From Caenibius sp. (GTDB lineage Bacteria > Pseudomonadota > Alphaproteobacteria > Sphingomonadales > Sphingomonadaceae): 34,543 nucleotides of DNA. Positions 3,305 to 18,048 of this stretch are shown piece after piece. The stretch is taken from assembly GCA_030830695.1 (NCBI GenBank), contig JAURML010000003.1:1-34543 (forward strand). Reading direction: 5' to 3'. A program made the translations under genes and the position numbers. The notes under the pieces were generated by a model. The model searched no databases, was not told the DNA's origin, and saw only the letters and a program-made list of their open reading frames with translations. The first letter of the stretch is position 1. Each line of letters begins with the position of its first letter.

Positions 3305-4678
3305 ATGCAATTGCTGCTTCGCCTGCTGGCCATCCTTGCCCTGACGATCATGTCGGTTCGCCCGGCCATGGCGCAATCGGTCTTGCGCGATGCCGAAACC
3401 GAAGCGCTGTTCCAGGATATGGCCGCGCCGCTGGTGGCGGCTGCGGGGCTGGCCCCCGGCAATGTCGACATCGTTCTGCTCAACGATCCGTCGATCAACG
3501 CCTTTGTCGCGGGCGGGCAGGCGATCTATGTGCACAGCGGACTGATCAACGAGGCAAGTTCGGCAGAAGAGGTTCAGGGTGTCATCGCGCACGAACTGGG
3601 CCATATCACCGGCGGGCACATCATCCGCTTCGATGAGGGGATGAAAGGCGCCACCAGCATAACCATCCTGTCCCTGCTGATTGGCGTGGCGGCGGCGGCG
3701 GCGGGTAGCCCGGATGCCGCGATGGGCGCGCTTGCCGCCGGGCAGCAGGCCGCGATGGGCAAGCTGCTGGCATTCACCCGGGTGCAGGAATCTTCGGCCG
3801 ATGCGGCGGGCGCCCAATATCTCTCCAGCGCCGGCATATCGGGGCGCGGTTCGCTCGAATTCTTCGAAAAGCTCCAGAATCTCGAATTTCGCCGCGGTAT
3901 CCGTCAGGATGACGAGGCGACATTCGGCCGCACCCACCCGATGACCGGGGACCGGATTGCCACCTTGCGCGAAACCTATGAAAAGGATCCCGCCTGGACC
4001 CGCCCGGCCGATCCGCAACTGCAGGAACGCTTCCTGCGGATCAGGGCCAAGCTTTATGGCTATATTGCCGAACCGGAACAGACGCTTGCCGCATTTCCGC
4101 CAACGGACAATTCGATCCCGGCTCATTATGCGCGCGCCTATGCCTATCACAAACAGGCCTTCACGGACAAAGCGCTGGCCGAAGCCGCAGCGCTGATCGC
4201 GACTGAACCGGACAACCCCTATTTCCTTGAATTGAAAGGACAGGTTCTGCTCGAATCGGGTCGGCCCGATGAAGCGCTGCCCGCATTGCGGCGGGCGACG
4301 CAACTGACCGGCAACAACGGCCTGATCGCGACAATCTTCGGCCATGCGCTGATCGCCACCGAGGATGAAGCCAATTATGCCGAGGCTGAGCGGGTGCTGA
4401 AAGCAGCGGTCGCGCGTGACCGCGAGAACCCCTTTGCCTGGCACCAGCTGGGTGTGATCTATGCGGCGCGCGGCGATCTGGCCCGGGCCAAGCTGGCCAG
4501 CGCGGAACAGCAGGTGATGGAGCAGCGCTATCGTGATGCGTTGATGAGCGCGCAGGCGGCGGTAGCCTCATTGCCGCATGATACGCCGGACTGGCTGCGC
4601 GCGCGCGATATAGAAATGCAGGCGCAGGCCGAGCTTGACCGCGACAAGAAGGAAAAGAAGAAGAGCAAGGATGGATAA
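3305..4678 (+). CDS. M48 family zinc metalloprotease with TPR-like C-terminus (BepA-like)
   Basis: This is a 457-residue periplasmic protease of the BepA/YfgC type, a family that helps outer-membrane protein assembly and quality control. Residues 1-23 form a signal peptide ending AMA. The zinc motif HELGH is at 96-100. The segment VQESSAD (160-166) would supply the third zinc ligand. The second half (from about residue 235) has helical repeats typical of TPRs, with YARAYAYHKQAFTDKALAEA and ALPALRRATQL as examples. The tail is very Lys-rich. The ATG at 3305 is set by the signal peptide; the open frame upstream overlaps the previous gene. Its stop overlaps the start of the DsbA-type gene by 8 bases, so the two are translationally coupled. 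Confidence 0.92.
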   Translation: MQLLLRLLAILALTIMSVRPAMAQSVLRDAETEALFQDMAAPLVAAAGLAPGNVDIVLLNDPSINAFVAGGQAIYVHSGLINEASSAEEVQGVIAHELGHITGGHIIRFDEGMKGATSITILSLLIGVAAAAAGSPDAAMGALAAGQQAAMGKLLAFTRVQESSADAAGAQYLSSAGISGRGSLEFFEKLQNLEFRRGIRQDDEATFGRTHPMTGDRIATLRETYEKDPAWTRPADPQLQERFLRIRAKLYGYIAEPEQTLAAFPPTDNSIPAHYARAYAYHKQAFTDKALAEAAALIATEPDNPYFLELKGQVLLESGRPDEALPALRRATQLTGNNGLIATIFGHALIATEDEANYAEAERVLKAAVARDRENPFAWHQLGVIYAARGDLARAKLASAEQQVMEQRYRDALMSAQAAVASLPHDTPDWLRARDIEMQAQAELDRDKKEKKKSKDG

Positions 4679-5417
4679 TGGGGCAAAGCGGAAAATGATC
4701 GGATATGGCGTCGCCGCCATGTTGGGCGCGGGGGCCATGGGCCTTGCCGGGGGCTGGGCATCGGTGCAATTCGGCCTTGCCGGGAAAGCGACCGGCGCAG
4801 CCGTACGCAGCTACATCCTCGAACACCCCGAAATTCTTCCCGAAGCGATGGAGCGGCTCGAAGCGCGTGAGGCGGCGAGCCGCCTCGCCCCGATGGCCGA
4901 TGCGGTGCGCGCGCCCTTCCCCGGTGCGGTGCTGGGCAACCCCAGGGGCTCGGTCGTGCTGGTCGAATTCAGCGATTACGCCTGCGGCTATTGCCGCCAC
5001 AGCGTGGCCGAGGTGGAAGCGCTAATCACAACGAACCCCGACCTGAAAGTGGTGATCCGCGAATATCCGATCCTTTCGGAACAGAGCGCGGCCGCCGCGC
5101 GGATGGCACTGGCCGCCGCCGAACAGGGGCGATTTGCCGCCTTCCACAAGGCCATGTTTGCCGCCGGACGGCCTTCGCCGACGACAATCGAGGCCGCCGC
5201 CCGCAAGGCGGGGCTCAATCTGGAGCGGGCGCGCAAATTCGCTGCATCCGCCGCCGTTGCGCGCGAGTTGCAGTCCAATCACGCCCTTGCCAGCCAGTTG
5301 GGCTTTAACGGTACGCCCAGCTGGGTCGCAGGAGACCAGGCCTTTTCCGGCGCTGTTCCGGGCGATGTCCTCGCCCGTGCGCTGGCCCGACCGGCTGATC
5401 CCGCCAAGGGCGTGTGA
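4671..5417 (+). CDS. DsbA family thioredoxin-fold protein
   Basis: This 248-residue protein has an N-terminal hydrophobic segment (about residues 9-30) that acts as signal or anchor. A short helical DsbA_N-like region follows with SYILEHPEILPEAMERLE. The thioredoxin domain carries the redox motif C-G-Y-C at 105-108 and the cis-proline motif FNGTPSW near the end. The family forms or shuffles disulfides, or moves electrons, in the periplasm. Upstream, ATG 4671 overlaps the protease gene by 8 bases; downstream, its TGA overlaps the GTG of the next protease by 4 bases. It may keep envelope proteins handled by the flanking proteases in the right redox state, but that link is inferred only from the operon. 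Confidence 0.93.
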   Translation: MDNGAKRKMIGYGVAAMLGAGAMGLAGGWASVQFGLAGKATGAAVRSYILEHPEILPEAMERLEAREAASRLAPMADAVRAPFPGAVLGNPRGSVVLVEFSDYACGYCRHSVAEVEALITTNPDLKVVIREYPILSEQSAAAARMALAAAEQGRFAAFHKAMFAAGRPSPTTIEAAARKAGLNLERARKFAASAAVARELQSNHALASQLGFNGTPSWVAGDQAFSGAVPGDVLARALARPADPAKGV

Positions 5418-6394
5418 AGCCGCTGGCTGCACTCCCCCTCAGCGCCCTGTTGCTGCTGACCGCGCCGGCCGGAGCGCAAGGATCATTGCCGGTCAGCGCG
5501 GCATCGGCGCTGGCAGCCAACCAGCTGCATGACGGGCGGCTGCTTGACGCAGGCTGGCGGCTGGCAACCGGCAATGCGCCCTTCTGTGCTTCCACCTCCC
5601 TGCAAATCGGCCTGTTGCTGCAGGATGTGATGCTGTTCGATCAGCCCGCGCTGGCAAGGCGCACGCTGGGCATGGCCGGGGATTTCACGATCGCGGCAGT
5701 GGCACAGGATTCGCCTGCTGCGCTGGCCGGGCTTGTGCCGGGTCAGGAAGTTGTCGCCGTCGGCAACCAGGCGCTTGCGGCCTTGCCCGCCGGGCAACCG
5801 GGCGATTTCAGGCGGCTGGGCAAAGTGGAAGCGCTGATGGAGAGCACGCTGGCGAAGCACGGCACAGTCGACCTGACACTGCGCGAGGCAGACGGTTCGC
5901 TGAGCCAGCGCAGCATCGCCGGGGTGCGCGCCTGCCGGGGCCGGTTCGAATTGCGCAATTCAGGGGCACGGGCAGAGGCAGACGGGGAACGCATCCTGAT
6001 CGGACGCGACTTTGCCGCACACCTGCCCGCAGCAGACTGGCTGAGCGATGCGGAATTCGCCGGGATTGTCGCTCATGAATTCGCGCATGTCATCCTGGCG
6101 CATGGCGCATGGCTTGACCGGGCCGGGCGCGACGATGCCGAAATCCGCCGCACCGAACGCGAAGCGGACCGGCTGGCCATCTGGTTGCTGGCCAACGCCG
6201 GATATGATCCTGTTCCCTTCGCGCAGTTGTTGGGTGACTGGGGCAGGCGCGGCCGCAACGGCCCGCCGCAGTCCCCCACGCATGACGAATGGGCAGCTCG
6301 CGCCGCACAGGCCCGCACGGAAGTGGCCGCGATGCGCGCGGCGCTGCTGGCGCGCGGCGTGGCTGACTGGTCGCACGATTTCCACCGGGAATGA
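5414..6394 (+). CDS. PDZ domain-containing M48-type metalloprotease
   Basis: This 326-residue secreted protein starts with GTG 5414 inside a GTGA overlap with the preceding stop. Residues 1-21 form a signal peptide ending in AGA. A PDZ-like module follows (about 85-165), with DSPAALAGLVPGQEVVAVG as its binding-loop region. The zinc motif HEFAH is at 221-225, and TEREAD at 247-252 gives the third ligand and the conserved Asp. The order PDZ then peptidase differs from the protease at the head of the operon. Two M48 enzymes around one DsbA-type protein suggest a small envelope quality-control module. Its substrates are unknown. Confidence 0.88.
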   Translation: MKPLAALPLSALLLLTAPAGAQGSLPVSAASALAANQLHDGRLLDAGWRLATGNAPFCASTSLQIGLLLQDVMLFDQPALARRTLGMAGDFTIAAVAQDSPAALAGLVPGQEVVAVGNQALAALPAGQPGDFRRLGKVEALMESTLAKHGTVDLTLREADGSLSQRSIAGVRACRGRFELRNSGARAEADGERILIGRDFAAHLPAADWLSDAEFAGIVAHEFAHVILAHGAWLDRAGRDDAEIRRTEREADRLAIWLLANAGYDPVPFAQLLGDWGRRGRNGPPQSPTHDEWAARAAQARTEVAAMRAALLARGVADWSHDFHRE

Positions 6395-13261: not shown

Positions 13262-14728
13262 TTAACCAAACAAATCATCCTGACGCGGCGTCCCCTCATC
13301 CCGTCGTGAGCGCGCACGACGGGGGGATGTGCCGCCCTCCACGGGCAGCACATCCAGCCGCCCATCACTGAATTCAAGGGCAAGCGCCGGTTGTGCAGCA
13401 GCGGTTGCGCGATTTTTCACCATTGTTCCGTCAGGCGCGACAACCAGCACATAACCGCGGGCAAGTGGCGCTCTCGGGTCAATCTGGCGCCGCAGCCGGT
13501 CAAGCGCATCCAGCCGGTCCCTGCCCCCCGCGATCCGCTGAGTGACGAGTACGGGGCCGATGCGCGCTGCATCCAGCCGGTCCTGCGCGCGCTGGACCCG
13601 CAGTTGCAGCAGCGCAATGGACAGCCGGGCCGGATCGGCCTGCAACCGGTCCTTGGCGCGGGTCGCCCGGTCTGCCAGCCCGCGCCGCAGCCGTTCGGAA
13701 AGCTCGTCCAGCTTCTGCGCGGGCGCTTGCAGCAAGGCCTCGCCACGCGGCAGGCGGCGCACCCGCGCCTCCAGCCGTTCCCGACCCAGCGACACCGGGC
13801 GCAGGATGGCGCGGCGCTTGCGCGCGGCCAGTTCGCCCAGCAGGGCCAGCAGATCGGCACGCACCGGAACCGCCATTTCCGCCGCTGCCGTGGGGGTTGG
13901 TGCGCGCCGGTCCGCCGCGAAATCAGCCAGTGTCGTATCCGTCTCATGGCCGACCGCTGAAATGACCGGAATGGTGGATTCGGCGATGGCGCGAACCACC
14001 ACCTCTTCATTGAACCCCCACAGATCCTCGATCGAACCGCCGCCGCGCGCCACAATTACCAGATCTGGACGCGGCACCGCACCATCAGGCGCAAGCGCCG
14101 AGAAACCACGCACTGCCGCCGCCACCTGTTCGGCACTGCCCTGGCCCTGCACCAGCACCGGCCAGACCAGCACATGACTGGGAAAACGATCGGCCAAGCG
14201 GTGCAGGATATCCCGGATGACCGCCCCGGTGGGCGATGTCACCACCCCGATCACTTGCGGAAGATAGGGCAGGGGCCGCTTGCGTTCCTCGGCAAACAGC
14301 CCTTCGGCGGCCAGCTGCGCCCGGGTCTTCTCCAGCAGGGCGAGCAGGGCGCCCTCGCCTGCGATCTCCATCCGTTCGATCACGATCTGGTAGCTCGATC
14401 GCCCGGCGTAAGTCGTCAGCTTGCCACTGGCGATCACTTCCAGCCCGTCTTCCGGCGCAAAGGGCAGGCGATCCGCCTGGCCGCGCCACATGACACCGTC
14501 GATCCGCGCCTTGTCATCCTTGAGGCTGCAATAAAGGTGGCCGGAGGCCGCGCGTTTCACACCGGAAAGTTCGCCGCGCAAGCGCACGAAACCGAACCGG
14601 TCCTCCACCGTGCGCTTGAGCAGCGCGGAAATTTCACTGATCGAGAGCGGTGCGGCGTTGTCGCCGGGCGCACCCTTCGCTACCAGCCCGCCAGCGGCAT
14701 CATTATCGTCAGTGAAGGGACCGGGCAT
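13262..14728 (-). CDS. xseA: exodeoxyribonuclease VII large subunit
   Basis: XseA is the catalytic subunit of exonuclease VII, which degrades single-stranded DNA and works with the small subunit XseB (not in this window). The 488-residue protein has the N-terminal OB fold ([30 protein letters not shown]). The catalytic domain shows [17 protein letters not shown] and [22 protein letters not shown] long coiled-coil region follows (about 290-400) and the C-terminal LARGYVLV motif. I chose ATG 14728; open sequence continues to 14818 but lies inside purD. The first three bases overlap the purD start codon on the other strand. Confidence 0.95.
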
Positions 14729-16022
14729 GAATATCCTCTTGGCAGGATCGGGCGGGCGCGAACATGCGCTGGCGTGGAAACTTTCGCAATCCCGCCTGCT
14801 CTCCGCTGTGGGGGACAAGCTCTATGCCACCCCCGGCAATCCCGGCATCGCACAACTGGCCGAGCTGGTCAGCCTTGACCTTGCCGATCATGCCGCCGTC
14901 GCGCAATTCTGCGCGGACAAGCGCATTGGGCTGGTGGTGATCGGCCCCGAAGCGCCGCTGGTTGACGGGCTGGCGGATTCGCTGCGGGCAGAAGGGATCG
15001 CCGTGTTCGGCCCGTCGCGGGCGGCGGCACAACTCGAAGGCAGCAAGGGCTATACCAAGGATCTGTGCGAACGCGCCGGCATCCCGACCGCAGGGTATGT
15101 TCGCACAGCCTCGCTGGAAGAGGCGCAGGCCGCGCTCGCCCGCTTTGCCGCGCCCTATGTGCTGAAGGCTGACGGGCTGGCGGCGGGCAAGGGCGTGGTG
15201 ATCGCCGAGACGCTGGCCGAAGCGGAGACTGCGCTGGTCGACATGTTTGGCGGCAAGTTCGGCGAAGCGGGCGCGGAAGTGGTGATCGAGGAATTCATGG
15301 AAGGGGAAGAGGCCAGCTTCTTCGCCCTGACCGACGGCGCCACGATCATGCCCTTTGGCAGCGCGCAGGATCACAAGCGCGTTGGCGAAGGCGATACCGG
15401 CCCCAATACCGGCGGCATGGGCGCCTACAGTCCCGCCCCGGTGTTGACCCCGCTGCTGGAAGGCGAAGTGCTGGAACGGATCATCGCGCCCACCGTGCGC
15501 ACCATGGCCAATGAAGACACGCCCTATTCCGGCGTGCTTTACGCCGGACTGATGCTGACCGCGACCGGGCCGAAACTGATCGAATATAATTGCCGCTTCG
15601 GCGATCCAGAATGCCAGGTGCTGATGATGCGGCTGGAGAGCGATCTGGGCGAATTGCTGCTGGCCTGCGCGGAGAACCGGCTGGCTTCGCAGCCCCAGCC
15701 GCGTTTTTCCGGCGATACCGCGCTGACCGTGGTGATGGCGGCCAGGGGCTATCCCGACACGCCTGAAAAGGGCGGCCGGATCGATGGGCTGGACACCGCC
15801 GAGGCAGCCGGGGCCAGAGTGTTCCACGCCGGAACCGCGCTGGATGCCTCAGGTGCCTTGACCGTGAACGGCGGGCGCGTGCTGAACGTGACGGCGCGTG
15901 GGAAAAATGCGGCAGAGGCGCAGGTGGCCGCCTATCGCGCGGTCGATGCGGTCGATTTTCCCACCGGCTTTTGTCGCCGCGATATCGGCTGGCGGGAAGT
16001 GGCGCGGGAACGGGACGGGTAA
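14727..16022 (+). CDS. purD: phosphoribosylamine--glycine ligase (GAR synthetase)
   Basis: PurD joins glycine to phosphoribosylamine using ATP, the second step of purine synthesis. The 431-residue ATP-grasp protein is full length. It opens [19 protein letters not shown], and contains [12 protein letters not shown], the substrate loop [56 protein letters not shown] and [13 protein letters not shown] 14727 is set by the N-terminal motif. Start codons of purD and divergent xseA share the palindrome CATG, so any purD promoter must lie within xseA. The low-GC restriction-modification island begins right after the stop. Confidence 0.97.
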
Positions 16023-16036
16023 AGGACGGCTCCGCC

Positions 16037-16452
16037 ACTTGACAATCCGGCAAGGGCTGCAGGTGATGGATGCCTGGGGCTTTCGCTATGTTTCGAACAT
16101 CGTCTGGCACAAGGTCCGGAAAGATGGTGGATCGGATGGACGCGGCGTTGGCTTCTATTTCCGCAATGTCACCGAACTGCTGCTGTTTGGCGTGCGCGGG
16201 AAAAACGCCCGGACGCTCGCCCCAGGCCGAAGTCAGGTCAACATGTTGCAGACCCGCAAGCGCGAACACAGCCGCAAGCCCGACGAACAATACAAAGTCA
16301 TCGAAGATTGCGGTTGGGCGCCGCGTATCGAACTGTTCAGTCGGGGCAAGCGGCGCGGCTGGACAGTCTGGGGCAATCAAGCTGACGAAAGTTACGAACC
16401 GACGTGGAGCACATATCGATATAACAGCGCCATGAGCATCGCGGCTGAGTAA
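16037..16452 (+). pseudogene. MT-A70 family adenine DNA methyltransferase, N-terminus missing
   Basis: About 137 residues match the C-terminal part of MT-A70-type N6-adenine methyltransferases: WGFRYVSNIVWHKVRKDGG, GRGVGFYFRNVTELLLFGVRG, then HSRKPDEQY, IELFSRG and WTVWGNQ. The last three correspond to the SAM-binding KPDE, ELF-R and GNQ elements known from this family. The N-terminal catalytic DPPW motif is absent: upstream sequence is already purD. The match begins about 15 bases after the purD stop. There is no internal stop; possible starts are TTG 16039, GTG 16063 and ATG 16066. Missing the catalytic motif, it is very likely inactive. It ends two bases before the endonuclease gene and was presumably its cognate methyltransferase. 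Confidence 0.85.
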
Positions 16453-16454
16453 TC

Positions 16455-17045
16455 ATGGTCACCGATCATCTGGTTCCGGCTGACATTCTGGCGCTTTACG
16501 AAGTCCGTGAATGGCGCAACGCGGTGGGGGTGCTCTCGACTGCCTGTCCGGATGAATGGCAGGAAATCCAGCATGCGTTGCGCAGTTTCCGTCTTCACCG
16601 ATCCGAAGTGCAGGCGGCAGGCGGTAACAGGTCCTCCATCGTTGAGCGACTGGAGCAACCGCTGAAAGCTGCTGGCTGGGTAGAAAAGCACTTTTCCACT
16701 TCGATCGTCGTGGACGGCGTTGCGACGGAATCGCCAACGCACAGTGTCGATTGTTTCAAGGGGCGCGTTGCCCTCGAAGTGGAATGGAACAACAAGGATC
16801 CATTTTACGATCGCGACCTGAACAATTTCCGGCTGCTTTTCGATCTCCAGGTCATCGATGCCGGGGTGATTATCACGCGCTGCTCAGAACTTCAGAATAT
16901 CTTCAATGGCCTTGGCAAGGACAGCAGCTACGGAAACTCCAACACGCACATGGGCAAGCTTCTGCCTAGGCTGCGAGGCGGTTCAGGCGGCGGCTGTCCC
17001 ATTGTTGTCTTCGGGATCGGCACTGGTCTCTGCATCGAAGACTGA
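16455..17045 (+). CDS. BglII/BstYI family type II restriction endonuclease
   Basis: The 196-residue protein has the family core VDCFKGRVALEVEWNNKD, with D99, E108 and E110 at the spacing of the BglII active site (D84, E93, Q95). The following DRDLNNFRLLFDL, VIITR and NTHMGKLLPRL...GGGCPIVVFGI are also typical. The length is close to known members of around 200 residues, so the gene looks complete. The predicted target class is GATC-centred (BglII AGATCT, BstYI RGATCY), but the exact site cannot be read from the sequence. ATG 16455 lies two bases after the methyltransferase remnant, so translation likely depends on ribosomes finishing that frame. Low GC marks it as acquired. Activity without a cognate methyltransferase is doubtful. 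Confidence 0.88.
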   Translation: MVTDHLVPADILALYEVREWRNAVGVLSTACPDEWQEIQHALRSFRLHRSEVQAAGGNRSSIVERLEQPLKAAGWVEKHFSTSIVVDGVATESPTHSVDCFKGRVALEVEWNNKDPFYDRDLNNFRLLFDLQVIDAGVIITRCSELQNIFNGLGKDSSYGNSNTHMGKLLPRLRGGSGGGCPIVVFGIGTGLCIED

Positions 17046-17052
17046 AAGTGCC

Positions 17053-18048
17053 CTAACCCAGCTTCTGCGCGATCAACGCCTTGAGATCGGCTTCGGGCCG
17101 TGCGCCGTAATGGCTGATGATCTCTGCCGCCGCGACCGCGCCCATCGCCAGGCAGCGATGAATCGACGCCTTTCTGGCATAGCCTGCCAAGAAACCGGCG
17201 GCGAAGAGATCACCTGCGCCAGTCGTGTCGACCACATGCGCTAGCGGCTCTGCCTCGATATCGTGCCGTTCGCCATGCGCAATCGCCACCGCCCCCTCCT
17301 CGCTGCGGGTCACGACGAGCACGGGCGCCTTGGGCGCCAGCGCGGCAAGGCCGGCGTCGAAATCGGGCTTGCCGGTCAGCGCGGCCAGTTCAGCCTTGTT
17401 GGCAAAGAGAATGTCGATCTGCCCGGCGTCGATCAGGGCACGGAAATCATCGCCGTGCCGCTCGATCACGAAAGCATCGGACAGGGTGAAGGCCACCTTG
17501 CGTCCGGCCGCGCGGGCCGCCGCAATGGCCTTGCGCATCGCGGCGCGCGGCTCTTCCGGATCCCACAGATAGCCTTCGAGATAGAGCACGGCGGCGCTGG
17601 CGATCAGCTGTTCGTCGAGCGCGCGGGCGGGGAGGAACTGCGAGGCACCGAGATAGGTGTTCATCGTGCGTTGGCCGTCAGGCGTCACGAAAATCAGGCA
17701 GCGCGCGGTGGACGGCGGGCCAGGCCGGGCCGGAGTGTCGAAATCGATTCCCACCGCGTGAATGTCATGCGCGAACACTTCACCCAGCTGATCGTCCGCC
17801 ACCTGGCCGATGAAGGCGCATTGCAGGCCAAGCGCGGACAGGCCGGCCAGCGTGTTGGCCGCCGACCCGCCTGAAATCTCGCGCGCGGGCCCCATTGCGT
17901 CATAGAGTTCATGCGCGCGTTTTGTATCGACCAGCATCATCCCGCCACGCGCCAGGCCCAGTTCCTCGATCAGCTCATCCTCGCAAGGGGACATGACATC
18001 GACAATCGCATTGCCGATGGCGAGAACGTCGTAACGGGGTTGCCTCAT
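17053..18048 (-). CDS. adenosine kinase (PfkB family)
   Basis: The 331-residue PfkB-family sugar kinase most resembles the alphaproteobacterial adenosine kinase group, which makes AMP from adenosine and ATP. Motifs are GNAIVDVM at the N-terminus, SGGSAANTLAGL at 59-70, and the second PfkB signature DTTGAGDLFAAGF beginning at 274, with the catalytic Asp at about 280. The substrate is inferred from family resemblance; another nucleoside or sugar is possible. It converges with the restriction endonuclease gene with a 7-base gap, and has no obvious terminator between them. Confidence 0.88.
   Translation of the reverse strand: MRQPRYDVLAIGNAIVDVMSPCEDELIEELGLARGGMMLVDTKRAHELYDAMGPAREISGGSAANTLAGLSALGLQCAFIGQVADDQLGEVFAHDIHAVGIDFDTPARPGPPSTARCLIFVTPDGQRTMNTYLGASQFLPARALDEQLIASAAVLYLEGYLWDPEEPRAAMRKAIAAARAAGRKVAFTLSDAFVIERHGDDFRALIDAGQIDILFANKAELAALTGKPDFDAGLAALAPKAPVLVVTRSEEGAVAIAHGERHDIEAEPLAHVVDTTGAGDLFAAGFLAGYARKASIHRCLAMGAVAAAEIISHYGARPEADLKALIAQKLG

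Follow-up and report, generated by a model that had tools for sequence, protein, structure and literature searches.

A full-length restriction endonuclease gene of the BglII/BstYI family was found directly behind a C-terminal remnant of its cognate MT-A70 adenine methyltransferase gene in the window, the 34,543-nucleotide stretch of DNA analysed here. The pair has lost its 5′-end, the draft genome contains no replacement methyltransferase of a known matching type and unusual residues occupy conserved sites. We consider it probable that the pair is what remains of a mobile Type II RGATCY cassette whose 5′-end was lost, leaving an orphan nuclease that is silent or inactive.

Genetic organisation of the locus

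The pair lies between purD, encoding phosphoribosylamine-glycine ligase (14724–16022, + strand; Pfam GARS_A/N/C, best E 2e-76), and a gene encoding a PfkB-family (adenosine) kinase in convergent orientation (17053–18048, − strand; PF00294, E 2.5e-49). The left flank is intact, as the C-terminus and stop codon of purD (16020–16022) were the same as in relatives. On the right, the stop codons of the kinase and the endonuclease are 7 bases apart. The G+C content of the segment was 57.2%, compared with 66.3% for purD and 64.2% for the window, which placed it in the lowest 1% of the window's 1,030-base stretches. An earlier reading, made from the sequence alone, had noticed this low G+C; the direction was right, although its figures (52% for the segment and 71% for purD) were not.

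In six relatives (L115, L117, L118, L119, L120 and L123) purD and the kinase gene were convergent neighbours with no cassette between them, and the gap ranged from overlapping stop codons up to about 0.8 kb. A comparison of this gap between relatives had been proposed as a way of finding an intact methyltransferase; intact copies were present, but at other related loci. As the two flanking genes are natural neighbours in relatives, a chimera is unlikely, and their pairing argues for the position of the cassette as assembled, although the exact joint is not proven by the flanks alone. The search around the cassette for a target-site duplication or terminal repeats returned only short, chance-like repeats.

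The truncated methyltransferase and its relatives

The methyltransferase frame (16024–16452, + strand) matched only positions 59–172 of the 172 in PF05063 (E 3.8e-17); profile positions 1–58 were missing. The remnant proper (16050–16452) retains the C-terminal ~130 residues and shows identities of up to 85% with intact relatives. About 85–100 N-terminal residues are gone, with the breakpoint at about codon 90–100. As had been described from the sequence, the DPPW motif went with them and KPDE, ELFSR and GNQ were kept. Judged by its motifs, the remnant would not be an active MT-A70 methyltransferase, as both DPPW and the N-terminal part of the fold are missing. The junction between the purD 3′ flank and the interior of the methyltransferase gene spans 16023–16049. 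DNA similarity to intact methyltransferases begins at 16046–16052, which is just past the purD stop codon, as claimed earlier, but at a distance of 25–30 bases and not 15. On the purD side, weak similarity to the purD 3′ flank of relative L123 extends to about 16041.

A complete relative, used as the query, matched the truncated copy alone, and the missing N-terminus was not found elsewhere in the genome. This bears on the possibility that the true locus holds a complete methyltransferase gene and that 16023–16050 is a mis-join or a mixture of strains in a metagenome bin. The genome is a draft of 200 contigs, and some solitary endonucleases in databases stem from sequencing errors in the methyltransferase (PMC3488263). 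We nevertheless regard such an artefact as unlikely, given that the two flanking genes adjoin each other in relatives, that the N-terminus is on no other contig and that about 250–300 bases are absent rather than a single frameshift being present.

Scanning one genome per species gave 127 relatives of the endonuclease, of which 80 were kept; within the same family, 32 of 398 genomes carried such a relative, the window's own genome being counted. A homologous MT-A70 methyltransferase adjoined the endonuclease at all loci but three (L042, L021 and L025). Of the 103 related loci whose methyltransferase could be read, 102 had DPPW, and the motif always lay 54 or 57 residues ahead of the point at which homology to the window starts. 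At the single exception (L104), a stop codon replaces a tryptophan. This locus, on a Hydrogenophilus metagenome-assembled genome (DYFK01000008.1, about 4540–4760), has the in-frame stop at the W of HLYLWVPNALL in an MT-A70 gene adjoining a BglII-like nuclease; it is possibly another solitary nuclease, or else a sequencing error. At L042 (Cohnella sp. CFH 77786, 3989–5823), the methyltransferase gene beside the nuclease (67% identical) is convergent and of the D12 class rather than MT-A70, an exchange of methyltransferase partner.

The tandem order of methyltransferase followed by endonuclease occurred at 16 other loci, a count that contains some mutual duplicates and leaves out the frameshifted L020. 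L020 (genome G007) was considered as a comparable case and rejected, since purD is also split in G007 and the frameshift can be put down to sequencing quality. No other genome with such a 5′-truncated methyltransferase beside the endonuclease was found among the 398 family genomes, the one-per-species scan and the related loci.

In the window, the remnant may start at an ATG at 16066, from which the frame is open to a stop codon two bases before the endonuclease start. Neither the remnant frame nor the endonuclease frame contained a stop or a frameshift, so the earlier statement that the remnant has no internal stop held. A further suggestion was that the frame might be maintained for translational coupling with the nuclease. 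This spacing is not special, however: in intact tandem relatives, too, the endonuclease start lies only a few bases from the methyltransferase stop, and the spacing is therefore inherited. That the remnant has taken on a new role, for instance as a subunit restraining the nuclease or in translation coupling, with the pair kept by selection, appears highly improbable to us. The open frame from a plausible start and the still high overall conservation of the remnant would suit such a role; the inherited spacing and the absence of this arrangement from the other genomes speak against it, as do two substitutions in the remnant, S97G and G99A, at sites invariant in 54 of 54 close relatives. As many departures (junction residues being left out of the count) were seen in only one of the 54 relatives that are at least 70% identical.

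The endonuclease and signs of decay

The endonuclease gene (16455–17045, + strand) encodes 196 amino acids and matched positions 1–162 of the 163 in the PF09195 Endonuc-BglII profile (E 2.2e-46). The BglII/BstYI and MT-A70 assignments made in the sequence-only reading were thus upheld, the former by the very profile search that it had proposed for this protein. The catalytic residues D99, E108 and E110, in the D/E/E spacing of BglII and BstYI, were intact as had been claimed, and did not vary among the 89 relatives whose sequences span them. An AlphaFold model of the endonuclease (input alignment of 20 sequences) had a mean pLDDT of 87. Foldseek ranked three BstYI entries top, and VIA-align gave Z 16.8 over 162 residues for BstYI and Z 16.6 over 152 residues for BglII, followed by BamHI and OkrAI. 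The solved BglII/BstYI enzymes are only 19–25% identical to the endonuclease; sequence searches, with the protein alone or as a profile, found no solved relative, whereas the fold comparison succeeded. Together, the profile match and the predicted model confirm membership of the BglII/BstYI family, with the predicted fold of that family.

The nearest characterised system to the pair is Nph3I, the restriction-modification system of Nitratiruptor phage NrS-3 (R.Nph3I, NrS3_08; M.Nph3I, NrS3_07; PMC10734518). R.Nph3I, to which the window endonuclease is 56% identical over 97% of its length, was reported to cut RGATCY and to be sensitive to 6mA, and its genome was methylated at RG6mATCY (PMC10734518). 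From this homology, RGATCY is the likely target of the window endonuclease. M.Nph3I, also of the MT-A70 type, aligned along the entire remnant; it is complete, with DPPW, whereas the window methyltransferase lacks its first part. The gene order also differs, the endonuclease preceding the methyltransferase in Nph3I and following the remnant in the window.

Three residues of the endonuclease depart from conserved columns: G156D, T163N and Y193C. Two of them, G156D and T163N, lie in a stretch that is otherwise conserved, and all 89 relatives have T at site 163, where the window endonuclease has N. Position 163 lies in a loop that is probably near the recognition loop of BglII/BstYI. T163N is consistent with decay of the endonuclease. 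Only 2 of 53 relatives at least 60% identical had as many departures, but 12 of 90 relatives overall did, and the signal of decay is therefore modest. Counting against decay are the full length of the endonuclease, its complete set of catalytic residues and the two open frames. With both frames open and few residues unusual, a recent truncation is the favoured view. Dating by dN/dS was rejected: synonymous sites are saturated, which makes the truncation undatable.

Protection of the genome and fate of the nuclease

The sampled part of the genome contains RGATCY about 7.7 times per 10 kb, and 286 AGATCT sites were counted in the genome. With so many sites to cut, the enzyme should harm the cell if it were active and the DNA unprotected. 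The earlier reading had listed the ways out, namely that the nuclease is silent or dead or that another methyltransferase protects the genome, and we judge this list to be right. The search for another GATC-type adenine methyltransferase, which it had also suggested, gave nothing: profile searches of the draft genome found no Dam-type (PF02086) and no C5 (PF00145) methyltransferase, and the MT-A70 profile matched this locus alone. Two N6_N4 methyltransferases were found. One, CcrM, acts at GANTC and would leave RGATCY unmethylated; the other is a ParB-type enzyme of a prophage. This ParB-type candidate (locus L159, contig C169 of this genome, G000) is a 417-aa ParB_N + N6_N4_Mtase protein. At L159 (8679–10411) and at another locus, L145, such a gene is followed directly by a P27 small terminase gene and large frames in a prophage-like order. 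The part of the literature on ParB-type prophage methyltransferases that we consulted, a Wolbachia study, stated no specificity.

A separated system, in which the nuclease is active and an unlinked adenine methyltransferase protects the genome, would have the ParB-type enzyme as its best candidate. Such systems are known (PMC3488263), the family can switch partner, as in Cohnella, and the 6mA sensitivity of R.Nph3I means that adenine methylation at GATC might protect. The genome is also only 97% complete, so that a protecting enzyme could be absent from the draft. We hold a separated system to be improbable all the same, in view of the specificity of CcrM, the lack of a Dam-type enzyme in the draft and the substitutions at conserved sites in both nuclease and remnant. 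That the nuclease is both active and expressed, with either the remnant or the prophage ParB-type enzyme acting as antidote, seems very doubtful.

Avoidance of RGATCY was considered as a sign of nuclease activity and rejected, because the observed/expected ratios gave no signal specific to the nuclease: 0.68 in this genome (from a sample picked around AGATCT matches), 0.58–0.81 in four relatives without it and 0.37–0.66 in four with it. RGATCY was rarer than the GATC context predicts in nine of nine family genomes (sampled stretches; the window and L148–L200), whether the nuclease was present or not.

Under the reading that we prefer, that of a decaying relic, a cassette of the Nph3I kind, in which the gene of an RG6mATCY-forming MT-A70 methyltransferase preceded that of an RGATCY-cutting BglII/BstYI-type endonuclease, would have entered the purD–kinase gap horizontally. 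A deletion or illegitimate recombination would then have taken the 5′ part of the methyltransferase, including the catalytic DPPW, in one event. As the methyltransferase comes first and the endonuclease starts near its stop codon, this event would also have removed the operon promoter upstream. The endonuclease gene may persist because it is silent or inactive, a solitary nuclease heading for loss. Whether expression, activity or both were lost, and the RGATCY specificity itself, are matters of inference. purD runs in the same direction, and no terminator was predicted on the + strand between purD and the endonuclease start, which leaves room for expression of the nuclease by read-through from purD; if this happens, survival must rest on loss of activity and not of expression.

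Solitary endonucleases have been documented as a class. Ershova et al. (2012) described 74 full-length solitary endonucleases beside truncated or frameshifted methyltransferases, with intact orthologues elsewhere (PMC3488263). The explanations given were lack of expression, an inactive product or an unlinked methyltransferase, and in PaeR7I the unmutated nuclease left after removal of the methyltransferase was harmless (PMC3488263). The window shares with this class the full-length endonuclease, the adjoining truncated methyltransferase and the intact orthologous systems in other organisms; it shows no substantive difference, the particulars being a draft genome and an unlinked prophage methyltransferase. 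By its gene content, the locus is one more instance of a solitary endonuclease with a damaged methyltransferase.

The locus offers a clear natural snapshot of a restriction-modification system dying without killing its host: the truncation ran into the methyltransferase gene from its 5′ end and left the nuclease gene legible. Were the nuclease shown to be active, survival of cells that have lost the antidote could be studied here; for now, the locus is a further example of a class already described.
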